Positions 26,111-54,345 of a stretch of 64,000 nucleotides of DNA are shown piece after piece (the first letter of the stretch is position 1; each line of letters opens with the position of its first letter). The DNA is from an uncultured Alphaproteobacteria bacterium. Lineage in GTDB: Bacteria > Pseudomonadota > Alphaproteobacteria > Rs-D84. The notes below the pieces were generated by a model. It searched no databases, was not told where the DNA came from, and worked only from the letters and a program-made list of their open reading frames with translations. The translations under genes and the position numbers were made by a program. Location: NCBI GenBank assembly GCA_947367055.1, contig CANBCI010000002.1:1-64000 (forward strand). The letters run 5' to 3'.

Positions 26111-26138
26111 TTGCATTTATTTCATCATAATTTATAAT
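26111..26138 (+). promoter_or_regulatory. Sigma70-type promoter of leader element E5
   Basis: TTGCAT-16 bp-TATAAT. Confidence 0.7.
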
Positions 26139-26144
26139 AGGTTT

Positions 26145-26399
26145 TGAATCAGTGGGGACACTGGTTCGGGGCTTTCACAGGCCTGTTCTGTTCGGTGCAA
26201 AACATGGTGGACATCGTAATCCGGTATTCCTGTGTTTTTGTGTCGTTATTTATCCCTGACTTATATGGTCGGGGGGCTGTCGGTTATAAAATACGGATTT
26301 CCCGAAAGACCGATGGAATCAATAACAGAATGATTTGTGAACTCCCCGGCCGTCATGTTCCCGTGACGACTTTATTTTTTTATCAAAGGGGAAATATTT
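26145..26399 (+). ncRNA. Structured pseudoknotted leader element, copy E5
   Basis: A: TTCACA..TTCTGT (26174-26191) with ACAGAA..TGTGAA (26325-26341); P1 GGTCGGGG (26267) with CCCCGGCC (26344); anti-P1 CCCTGAC; terminator CGTCATG/CGTGACG then T7. Confidence 0.72.
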
Positions 26400-26660
26400 A
26401 TGAAAGGGATGTGGGCTATCATAGGTATTTGCACCGTGGCCACGGTTACAGGGCCGGCGGTTGCAGGGCATTATACCGCACGCGGTGATTATATTAGTTC
26501 ATCCAAAGAAACAATGGGGCAAATTGGCGACTGGATGCAGTTTAACGGAACATGTCACAGCGGAATTGTATGCCCAGCATTTTTCAAACGGCGATTTAAC
26601 CGCGGATAATGCCGGATATAATTTTGCCGGAATGTCTGTAAATGTAAATTTTTAACCAAA
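26400..26660 (+). pseudogene. Small secreted protein, likely frameshifted (ORFs 26400..26609 and 26461..26655)
   Basis: Signal peptide MKGMWAIIGICTVATVTGPAVAG; alternative frame ends in barrel-like DNAGYNFAGMSVNVNF. Confidence 0.45.
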
Positions 26661-33556: not shown

Positions 33557-33585
33557 TTGTTTTTATTTGCCCAATAAATTATAAT
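33557..33585 (+). promoter_or_regulatory. Sigma70-type promoter of leader element E6
   Basis: TTGTTT-17 bp-TATAAT. Confidence 0.65.
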
Positions 33586-33591
33586 TTGAAA

Positions 33592-33856
33592 TGAACCAAC
33601 AGGGATGCTGGCTCAGGGACTTGAAAATCCCATAAATGAACGGCGTGTAATTTTTGCATGTCGAATCCGAAATGAAAGCATGGGCGTTGCTTTTGCAATG
33701 CGTCATGTTTTGTCACCCGACCGTGAACGGTCGGGGGTCTGTGGTTATATAACAGGGTGCGCACCCAAAAGCCACGGGGTCATTTTCATTTATGATTTTT
33801 CAAATCCCCGACCGCCATGTCCTGGCGGTTTTGTTAAAACAAAAATGGGGTGAAAA
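33592..33856 (+). ncRNA. Structured pseudoknotted leader element, copy E6
   Basis: A: TTGAAAA-tcc-CATAAATGA (33621-33639) with TCATTTATG-at-TTTTCAA (33786-33803); P1 GGTCGGGG (33729) with CCCCGACC (33806); anti-P1 CCCGACC (33716); terminator ACCGCCA/TGGCGGT then T-run. Confidence 0.75.
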
Positions 33857-34306
33857 ATGCAAAAATATTTCTTTTTCTGTTTGCTGCAGTTGTGCGTATT
33901 TTCATATGCGGCCGATGCGGCATCCACAAACTGTGTGTTTTGTGGCGTCTATCCGTGCGGATATTATAAAACTGCGGATTGTTGCGGCGCGTGTGACTGC
34001 AGTTCCGTGTCGTGTGACGCCGGTTATTCGGTGGATGCAAACTGTAATTGTGTGAAATCCGGCGTCGGGGGTGGTGATTTAAGCAAAGGTCAATGTGAAA
34101 AAGGGTATTATTGGTCGGGTTCTTTGAGCAGCGGTTTTTGTGTCCGGTGCCCCAACGGTGGAACAACGCATGATGTTGTTTATGGTGATAACGGTTTTAT
34201 AAAGTTAAAAGTTGATATAACCGATTGCTATATTCCGGCGGGCCAAGATGTGACTGATGCAACCGGAACCTATTCATTTACCACGGATTGTGCATATACA
34301 AATTAG
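33857..34306 (+). CDS. Small Cys-rich secreted protein
   Basis: Signal peptide MQKYFFFCLLQLCVFSYAADA; about 15 Cys in the mature part. Confidence 0.78.
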   Translation: MQKYFFFCLLQLCVFSYAADAASTNCVFCGVYPCGYYKTADCCGACDCSSVSCDAGYSVDANCNCVKSGVGGGDLSKGQCEKGYYWSGSLSSGFCVRCPNGGTTHDVVYGDNGFIKLKVDITDCYIPAGQDVTDATGTYSFTTDCAYTN

Positions 34307-47224: not shown

Positions 47225-47260
47225 TTAGAAACTGAAACCCGCCAAACGGCGGGTTTTTAT

Positions 47261-47288
47261 TTGCATCCGTCAATTTTTATGCTATAAT
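47261..47288 (+). promoter_or_regulatory. Sigma70-type promoter of leader element E1
   Basis: TTGCAT-16 bp-TATAAT. Confidence 0.72.
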
Positions 47289-47295
47289 GCACAAC

Positions 47296-47482
47296 GCAAA
47301 GGGAAACCGGCGCAAAGGTGTCATAACCTTTCCTAGTGTCAGAAATGACAACACTCCAGTTTGGCTGGAGGCGCGTGATATATCTAAATAAGCGCGACTA
47401 TTCTAGGGTAGTTATGAACCTCCAGCCGTTTGGTTATTCCAAACGGTTTTGTTTTTAATTAACCAAACAAATGGAGTGAAAA
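47296..47482 (+). ncRNA. Structured pseudoknotted leader element, copy E1
   Basis: P1 GGCTGGAGG (47363-47371) with CCTCCAGCC (47419-47427); A: ATAAC..CCTAG (47323-47336) with CTAGG..GTTAT (47403-47415); H1 TGTCA-gaaa-TGACA; anti-P1 CTCCAG (47354); terminator CCGTTTGG/CCAAACGG (47426-47446) overlapping P1'. Confidence 0.8.
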
Positions 47483-47809
47483 ATGGCTGCATTAACAATG
47501 AGTGCATGGCAAATCGGACAGGCATTAAAATATGCACGCAAGAGCATATCTATGCTGCATGATGATACGGCACGCATGTTGAAAATAACCCGCGAAGAAT
47601 TAACATTATTTGAAAATGGCGAGGTTGAGATTCCAAAGCACATATTGGAAACGATATTTGCCTTGGGGCTGATGATGATGCACACGCGTGCAATGCAGGT
47701 GGATTATCATCACATGGCGCGTCAATGGCGTTATATGCACACCAAGGTAATTGACCTGCAGAAAAAAGTACAAAAAATTGATAAAACGCCAAACCCTGCG
47801 TTGCAGTAA
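47483..47809 (+). CDS. Small XRE-like helix-turn-helix protein with basic helical tail
   Basis: IGQALKYARKSISMLHDDTARMLKITREELTLFENGEVEIPKHILETIF fits an HTH_3-like pattern; RBS aatGGAGtga. Confidence 0.72.
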   Translation: MAALTMSAWQIGQALKYARKSISMLHDDTARMLKITREELTLFENGEVEIPKHILETIFALGLMMMHTRAMQVDYHHMARQWRYMHTKVIDLQKKVQKIDKTPNPALQ

Positions 47810-53281: not shown

Positions 53282-53343
53282 CCTTTGCAAATAAAATTCA
53301 TAGTGTTATAATACATATGCCGCCGGGTGTTCCGACGGCGGGG
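53268..53343 (+). repeat. Left arm of about 65-75 bp inverted repeat (promoter plus first hairpin)
   Basis: AACCTTTGCAAATAAAATTCATaGTGTTATAATACaTATGCCGcCGGGTGTTcCGACGGCGGG, mirrored at 54272-54345. Confidence 0.85.
53285..53312 (+). promoter_or_regulatory. Sigma70-type promoter of leader element E2
   Basis: TTGCAA-16 bp-TATAAT. Confidence 0.72.
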
Positions 53344-53510
53344 TGTAGCTACCCCTAATCATCCTATTTCAAATTTAGAAATAGAAATCCCAGTTTATAA
53401 AGGCTGGGGGGCTGTGATATATATAAATAAACAGCACTGTAGATGATTATAGTAGCTAACCTCCAGCCACTTGGATTTATCCGGTGGTTTTTTAATACGG
53501 AGATTTTACC
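53319..53510 (+). ncRNA. Structured pseudoknotted leader element, copy E2
   Basis: A: TAGCTAC-ccc-TAATCATC (53346-53363) with GATGATTA-ta-GTAGCTA (53442-53458); P1 GGCTGGGGG (53402) with CCTCCAGCC (53460); H1 CTATTTC/GAAATAG; H2 GCTGT-GATATATATAAATAA-ACAGC; terminator CCACTTGGA/TCCGGTGG then T6. Confidence 0.8.
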
Positions 53511-53717: not shown

Positions 53718-53818
53718 ATTATCGGATTTCCGAAATTGGCATTGTGTTTGGTTGGGGGGCTGCGATATATCTGAATAAGCGGCACTATAGTTGTAGTAGT
53801 TGTGAACCTCCAGCCATA
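53718..53818 (+). ncRNA. Truncated copy E3 of the leader element
   Basis: P1 GGTTGGGGG (53750) with CCTCCAGCC (53807), H2 GCTGC-GATATATCTGAATAA-GCGGC; no matching A strand, anti-P1 or terminator seen. Confidence 0.6.
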
Positions 53819-53825
53819 ATTCTTA

Positions 53826-54101
53826 TTATTTCTTCTTTTGCTTTTTTACTTGCATATTTCGTTCGTATTCCGCGTCAAGCATTTGCTCGCGTCGTTCGCG
53901 TTCGGCATCAAGTTTTATTTTCCTTTTATATTCGCGCGCAACCCGCAATTTTTGCAGTTCTATTTCCGGTTCCAATATTGGCTTTAGTTTATGGTACAAT
54001 TGGCTGATTTGATAATACAAGTCTAACAGTCTATCCAGCAATTGCTCTTTCGTTAATGGCTTTGGTTCCGGGAATTGAAATTGTGGTGATTTCGGTTGCA
54101 T
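53826..54101 (-). CDS. Small charged coiled-coil protein
   Basis: MQPKSPQFQFPEPKPLTKEQLLDRLLDLYYQISQLYHKLKPI...; follows leader E4; RBS aGAGGatag. Confidence 0.65.
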   Translation of the reverse strand: MQPKSPQFQFPEPKPLTKEQLLDRLLDLYYQISQLYHKLKPILEPEIELQKLRVAREYKRKIKLDAERERREQMLDAEYERNMQVKKQKKK

Positions 54102-54295
54102 AAACTATCCTCTTATGAAATAAAAACAACCGCAAAATTTATGCGGTTGGGGTTGAATAAACTATAGCAAGATAGCCCCGCTTATTTATATATATCGCGG
54201 CCCCCAACCAATGTTGGAGGTTTTTACATTCCTTTATAATAGGAACAACTTGCTATGGGTTTATTCAGAACCCGCCGTCAGAACACCCGACGGCA
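54102..54295 (-). ncRNA. Structured pseudoknotted leader element, copy E4
   Basis: Minus strand: A TGAATAAAC-cc-ATAGCAAG (54267-54249) with CTTGCTAT-a-GTTTATTCA (54171-54154); P1 GGTTGGGG with CCCCAACC; anti-P1 CCTCCAAC; H2 CCGC-GATATATATAAATAA-GCGG; terminator CAACCGCA/TGCGGTTG overlapping P1' then T5. Confidence 0.8.
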
Positions 54296-54345
54296 TAGGT
54301 ATTATAACACGATGAATTTTATTTGCAAAGGTTATTTGCCGGTTG
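54272..54345 (-). repeat. Right arm of inverted repeat (E4 promoter TTGCAA-16-TATAAT plus first hairpin)
   Basis: Near-identical reverse complement of 53268-53343. Confidence 0.85.

Follow-up and report, generated by a model that had tools for sequence, protein, structure and literature searches.

The six elements E1–E6 of the window, by which the whole 64,000-nucleotide stretch of DNA analyzed here is meant, are probably leader RNAs that derive from C4, on the sRNA-Xcc1 branch, and that act as regulated terminators, off by default and with an input provided by base pairing specific to each element. The anatomy of the elements, the covariation of their helices, the overlap of the terminator with a core helix, the absence of an a2b2 target and the gene context are read directly from the sequences, and it is from these that we infer action in trans, a regulated readthrough and the direction in which the switch works.

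An initial annotation had described mutually exclusive helices (anti-P1 with P1, P1 with P1', and a terminator) as a switch in E1 and, by the same logic, in E4, E5 and E6. The anti-P1, P1, P1' and terminator strands of E1 lie where it had placed them, including the CC shared by P1' and the terminator, and the strands that it had quoted for E4 (minus strand), E5 (26254–26274) and E6 (33716–33829) are likewise present. The features are as follows, with bit scores from a covariance model of the core (R1; stems P1/P2/P3, 11 sequences, 20 pairs) or from the Rfam sRNA-Xcc1 model (RF02221).

47260–47288, plus strand: E1 promoter-like site (TTTGCA, 17 nt, TATAAT, extended −10 TG)
47321–47327, plus strand: E1 a1 strand TCATAAC, in the loop of an AAAGG..CCTTT hairpin; partner a' at 47411–47417
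47331–47336, plus strand: E1 b1 strand TCCTAG; partner b' at 47403–47408 in the P3 loop
47354–47359, plus strand: E1 anti-P1 CTCCAG, pairing with the P1 5' strand
47363–47371, plus strand: E1 P1 5' strand GGCTGGAGG, the first strand of the C4-like core 47363–47427 (78 bits with R1)
47377–47391, plus strand: E1 P2 loop GATATATCTAAATAA, inside the C4-like core
47403–47408, plus strand: E1 b' strand CTAGGG, in the P3 loop
47411–47417, plus strand: E1 a' strand GTTATGA, the complement of a1
47419–47427, plus strand: E1 P1' strand CCTCCAGCC, pairing with the P1 5' strand
47426–47446, plus strand: E1 intrinsic terminator stem-loop, arms CCGTTTGG (47426–47433) and CCAAACGG (47439–47446), with CC common to P1'
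47483–47809, plus strand: gene 3' of E1, small HTH-like protein of 108 amino acids
53284–53489, plus strand: E2, whole element including the promoter (R1 81.5 bits)
53319–53339, plus strand: E2 5' hairpin
53346–53352 and 53356–53363, plus strand: E2 a1 and b1
53388–53393, 53402–53468 and 53467–53487, plus strand: E2 anti-P1, core and terminator
53750–53815, plus strand: E3, a core alone, without anti-P1, terminator or downstream gene
54127–54329, minus strand: E4, promoter 54329–54301
54267–54259 and 54256–54249, minus strand: E4 a1 and b1
54220–54213, minus strand: E4 anti-P1 CCTCCAAC
54209–54145, 54152–54145 and 54149–54127, minus strand: E4 core, P1' and terminator
53826–54101, minus strand: ORF of 91 amino acids 3' of E4
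26133–26375, plus strand: E5, sRNA-Xcc1-like (RF02221 30.0 bits), −10 at 26133–26138
26174–26179, 26186–26192 and 26254–26260, plus strand: E5 a1, b1 and anti-P1
26267–26351, plus strand: E5 core, followed by a terminator-like hairpin
33580–33833, plus strand: E6, sRNA-Xcc1-like (RF02221 39.5 bits; R1 27.3 bits, E 1.5e-4)
33580–33585, 33621–33627 and 33631–33640, plus strand: E6 −10, a1 and b1
33716–33722, 33729–33813 and 33811–33829, plus strand: E6 anti-P1, core and terminator
33857–34306, plus strand: ORF of 149 amino acids 3' of E6, a cysteine-rich secreted protein as judged by eye from its translation

The overlap with P1' comprises just 2 bp of the 8-bp terminator stem in E1, and the E4 terminator starts as CAACC within P1'. 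E3 is probably a decayed copy; its core is high-scoring and is convergent with the ORF of E4. The ORF that follows E5 (26400–26609) is short, and further frames behind it resemble the remainder of a broken gene. E2 and E4 each have an ATG close to their start, which raised the idea of a leaderless peptide encoded in the 5' hairpin; this idea was dropped as not general (E1 is one exception).

The three-stem core co-varies: in the R1 alignment 96.7% of the cells are paired, and double changes occur in 24 cells, compared with 7.5 after shuffling. In these elements P2 consists of a short stem that closes a conserved single-stranded loop of 15 nt (GAAUAUANNGAAUAA). Searches of the 0.96-Mb genome with R1 confidently identified about 45–46 copies, the own-genome copies being analyzed from stretches around the elements. 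Hence the recurrence of the helix logic noted at the outset is borne out on a far wider scale, whereas the claim that it recurs in unrelated sequence is not: the copies are homologous and form one RNA family with P1, P2 and P3, probably akin to sRNA-Xcc1 and C4. Across the genus, whose members are gut bacteria of roughly 1 Mb, the copy number ranges from 0 to 49 per genome, with 1–49 copies in 54 of the 61 same-genus genomes (own included), and further copies are scattered in other Alphaproteobacteria. Judged by a conserved protein whose gene neighbors E1, the nearest named relatives are gut metagenome-assembled genomes of the Candidatus Enterousia type. At G000:C3:144126-145684 (L084), eight R1 cores are clustered, some of them in tandem with duplicated promoters, in a gene-free and apparently decaying arrangement.

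The strongest feature of the family, which the initial annotation did not include, is the pairing of two upstream strands with the core. In nearly all good copies a1 is located in the loop of a GGG..CCC hairpin and b1 lies 3' of this hairpin; the partner of a1 is a', the strand just 5' of P1', and that of b1 is b' in the P3 loop. With partners swapped between elements as the control, exact a1b1:a'b' runs of at least 7 bp were found in 82% of own copies (15% swapped), 100% of congeners (20%), 91% of copies in other Alphaproteobacteria (15%) and 93% of loci of the sRNA-Xcc1 type (17%). In the E1 gene family, for which 29 loci were compared, 98.5% of the a1:a' helix is paired; five of its seven pairs show double changes (0/500 shuffles), and one pair occurs in all four Watson–Crick types. 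The b1 and b' strands behave alike, with runs of at least 6 in 79% against 7% swapped. Furthermore, the leaders of genes whose products are 95–97% identical to the E1 protein differ markedly in their a/b strands.

The second set of observations concerns the terminator. Its 5' arm begins within P1' in 36 of 46 own copies, where the two share 1–5 nt, whereas any terminator was found in 6 of 46 shuffled controls; it also begins within P1' in 24/29 congeners and 14/23 copies from other Alphaproteobacteria, against 2/30 loci of the sRNA-Xcc1 type. The anti-P1/P1 duplex is element-specific in own copies, with an energy well below that of swapped partners (z = −6.9; 0/2000 permutations), and in other Alphaproteobacteria, again relative to swapped partners, while the same comparison lends it no support in sRNA-Xcc1-type loci (z = −0.8) and has no power in the congener sets, in which P1 is invariant. 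Positions 3–4 of P1 vary in concert with both anti-P1 and P1'; at position 4, about nine copies have A in place of T, and both partner strands are altered to match. Structure prediction gives an intrinsic terminator that is mutually exclusive with a helix of the conserved core, as in transcriptional riboswitches. The switch reading of the initial annotation therefore holds in so far as terminator-coupled, mutually exclusive helices are real, recurrent and co-varying, which supports an attenuator design; its argument from unrelated sequence falls away.

Constrained nested folding of 42 own leaders gave the state with anti-P1 a median advantage of 11 kcal/mol, in an equilibrium model that ignores the pseudoknot of a1b1 with P1, so that the balance could shift. 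The terminator formed with a probability of 0.80 when anti-P1 was forced and 0.37 when P1 was forced, and the last 4 nt of P1' were part of it with probabilities of 0.61 and 0.005, respectively; the E2 terminator formed in neither modeled state. The minimum-energy fold of E4 is the complete off state, in which a1b1:a'b' encloses anti-P1 and P2 and is followed by the full terminator. When a1b1 was occupied, the mean predicted P1 formation increased little (0.05 to 0.20), although single copies responded strongly, with changes from 0.01 to 0.34 (E1) and from 0.00 to 0.92 (an E1 paralogue). Owing to this small mean rise, one antisense match would leave most copies incompletely switched in the folding model, whose pseudoknot-free equilibrium treatment makes the sign and size of the regulation tentative.

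Most copies are closely followed by a gene that has a good ribosome-binding site (RBS). By a crude rule, 24 of 33 distinct downstream proteins are signal-peptide-like, against 18 of 54 ORFs of the window, with at least one of the 24 a false positive (an HTH protein starting MSGRPFKP). Pfam domains in the downstream proteins comprise OMP beta-barrels, trypsin, PLD, PAP2, GT8 and HTH domains, and in other Alphaproteobacteria OMP beta-barrels occur in 4/17. An R1 element lies just upstream in 29 of the 30 fetched loci of the small HTH family to which the E1 product belongs (this genome and congeners). This family (L238–L267) reaches up to 12 matches in one congener (G798), as an RNA-plus-protein module. 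A prophage origin of the own copies, judged by Bro-N content, was discarded, the genome being without Bro-N.

The relationship to C4 was assessed on phage P1, in whose record the annotated order is a1-b1-C4-a2-b2 and in which the Rfam models C4 (RF01695; control score 68.8 bits) and c4-a1b1 (RF03163) were both found. RF01695 gave no match in the window or in E-type loci. The gathering score of RF02221 is 53 bits; E5 and E6 fall below it, together with L049, L133, L136, L146 and L150 (all at 30–43 bits, sub-threshold), and E1–E4 were not reported by this model. R1 in turn cross-matched E6, L145 and L155, the last in Escherichia phage Rac-SA53. These reciprocal matches are sub-threshold, with E values from 1e-5 to 1e-2 in small searches, and are linked via L136, L146 and L049. 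No known Rfam riboswitch or leader reached its gathering threshold in the window, the weak matches to Trp, Leu and rimP resembling chance terminators, and a GEMM-like motif in E1 (CGCAAAGGGAAACC) is no more frequent in the window than expected by chance.

The sRNA-Xcc1 RNAs, present in 62 of 399 sampled Pseudomonadota, are laid out as C4-type loci, with a1b1, the core and a2b2 at the RBS. In L097–L126 and L154–L156 a duplicated a..b motif flanks the Shine–Dalgarno sequence and corresponds to the C4 a2b2 target, as in L116 (CCGAAAA-CCCCACC-AAACAG upstream and CCGAAAA-GGAG-CAAACAG at the RBS); a2b2 at the RBS was found in 60% of sRNA-Xcc1-type loci against 10% swapped. It is absent from the own elements, where 4% of own and 9% of swapped combinations reached 7 bp or more (p = 0.86). 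The genes of 24 sRNA-Xcc1 loci include Bro-N (5), Rha (3), KilA-N (2), SymE (2) and P22_AR_N (1), and RNAs of this type lie directly 5' of ant or KilA-N in phage Aaphi23, Rac-SA53 and Acinetobacter phage 4316. RF02221 belongs to no Rfam clan. In Xanthomonas integrons sRNA-Xcc1 is located before symE and a regulatory link has been suggested, C4 not being named in the available part of that source (PMC12444791). As the RBS region of the neighboring SymE or antirepressor gene is complementary to the P3 loop and a' of sRNA-Xcc1, the C4-type layout would explain what this RNA does in cis. Between b1 and P1, sRNA-Xcc1-type loci (for example L110 and L103) carry a conserved terminator-like hairpin with the loop CCCGACAG followed by TTTTTTGTGCC, and the same hairpin occurs in phage P1 (GCGGTATTTTTGTGTCC).

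In the mechanism that we propose, each leader would be transcribed from its own promoter as a hairpin presenting a1, followed by b1 and by a core (P1/P2/P3) complementary to both through b' and a'. In classical C4 and sRNA-Xcc1, a'b' has a further target at the RBS of the gene, where the two strands recur as a2b2; here the place of that target is taken by a terminator overlapping P1' and an anti-P1 competing for the P1 5' strand. In the nested default fold (a1b1:a'b' with anti-P1 on the P1 5' strand) P1' would be free, the terminator would form and the gene would be off. Should the C4 fold (P1/P2/P3) prevail, P1' would be taken, the base of the terminator lost and readthrough would follow. The likely input would be a change in the a1b1:a'b' pairing, for example through a short RNA transcribed from that copy or from a sister. 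As a bolder extension, which we regard as doubtful, the approximately 45 copies may be mutually insulated switches, in each of which a short RNA, ended by the terminator or trimmed by RNase P, recognizes the a1b1 of its own specificity alone and sets termination, giving address-coded control of the secretome; the a/b specificities turn over even between proteins that are 95–97% identical.

Several other explanations have to be weighed against regulated termination. The leaders may mainly produce a trans-acting antisense RNA in the manner of C4 and sRNA-Xcc1, cut by RNase P where P1 begins and directed against other mRNAs, with a terminator that just ends the RNA and a downstream gene expressed through a constant leak. 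The conserved core is consistent with this, as are the mapping of sRNA-Xcc1 as an 88-nt RNA (PMC2996969), the start of its Rfam model at P1 and the accumulation of Acinetobacter C4-like RNAs from the start of P1, as with RNase P (PMC5320573). However, a'b' tracks the upstream a1b1 of the same element with full compensation, the majority of copies are located just 5' of a gene with a good RBS, and both anti-P1 and the terminator overlap would be superfluous, so this explanation is considered unlikely. That the elements are a mobile two-part module of RNA and small HTH protein, spreading selfishly and with a regulation that serves its own copy control, would account for the 0–49 copies within one genus, the tandem and decayed copies and the linkage to the E1-protein family; we judge it quite unlikely, however, given that most own-genome copies precede diverse, mostly secreted proteins and not the HTH family.

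A metabolite riboswitch, with the P2 loop as the aptamer and anti-P1, P1 and the terminator as the expression platform, would make use of the conserved single-stranded loop and the terminator platform that are present, but the homologues control phage antirepressors and SymE and match the antisense layout of C4, and the downstream genes have no pathway in common. Furthermore, the variable part is the guide-like a1b1:a'b' base pairing, which makes an antisense RNA or pairing in cis a better-supported trigger than a metabolite; a riboswitch is thus very unlikely. Least probable is the reading that the terminators are coincidental or constitutive and the alternative helices a by-product of the resemblance of anti-P1 to P1'. 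The congener sets, powerless for anti-P1, leave it some room, whereas the anti-P1 covariation, the excess of overlapping terminators over shuffled controls and the lack of both anti-P1 and overlap in sRNA-Xcc1-type loci argue against it.

With C4 of phages P1 and P7 (RF01695) the elements share the promoter, the 5' hairpin with a1 in its loop, b1, the three-stem a'b' core and the following gene. They differ in that they have no a2b2 at the RBS, carry the P1'-overlapping intrinsic terminator and anti-P1, have a short P2 stem with a conserved 15-nt loop, and occur as about 45 copies before non-phage genes, without a match to RF01695. With sRNA-Xcc1 (RF02221) they share the a1b1 pairing and apparently the P1/P2/P3 core, whereas its loci carry the RBS target a2b2 with antirepressor or SymE genes and lack the overlapping terminator and anti-P1. 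IsrK of prophage Gifsy-1 (RF01394) is similar as a leader RNA before an antirepressor gene with alternative structures, a single leader yielding a short RNA at a terminator or an mRNA by readthrough (PMC4825925); it differs in acting on translation in trans. The isrK model scored 35 bits on the a1b1 leader of phage P1 (L157:2231-2312), which suggests that isrK represents the a1b1 portion of a locus resembling C4. The likeness to the P4 CI RNA (seqA/seqC) is mechanistic, taken from its description as a processed antisense RNA whose pairing with a nascent segment further upstream leads to premature termination (PMC4825925). The Group 1 C4-like sRNAs of Acinetobacter baumannii resemble the elements in their many chromosomal C4-type copies with a variable a' strand, but are described as being cut from larger transcripts and have proposed trans targets (PMC5320573); they are not described as terminator-coupled leaders of secreted-protein genes. 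No report of a C4-type leader combined with an overlapping terminator was found in the open-licence literature searched. P4 CI and IsrK, together with the multi-copy Acinetobacter RNAs, are precedents for parts of the mechanism. C4, sRNA-Xcc1 and probably isrK are separate Rfam entries joined by one layout, and the present elements are a phage-type antisense module whose output has apparently changed, with the RBS target absent, the terminator and anti-P1 present and up to 49 copies per genome.
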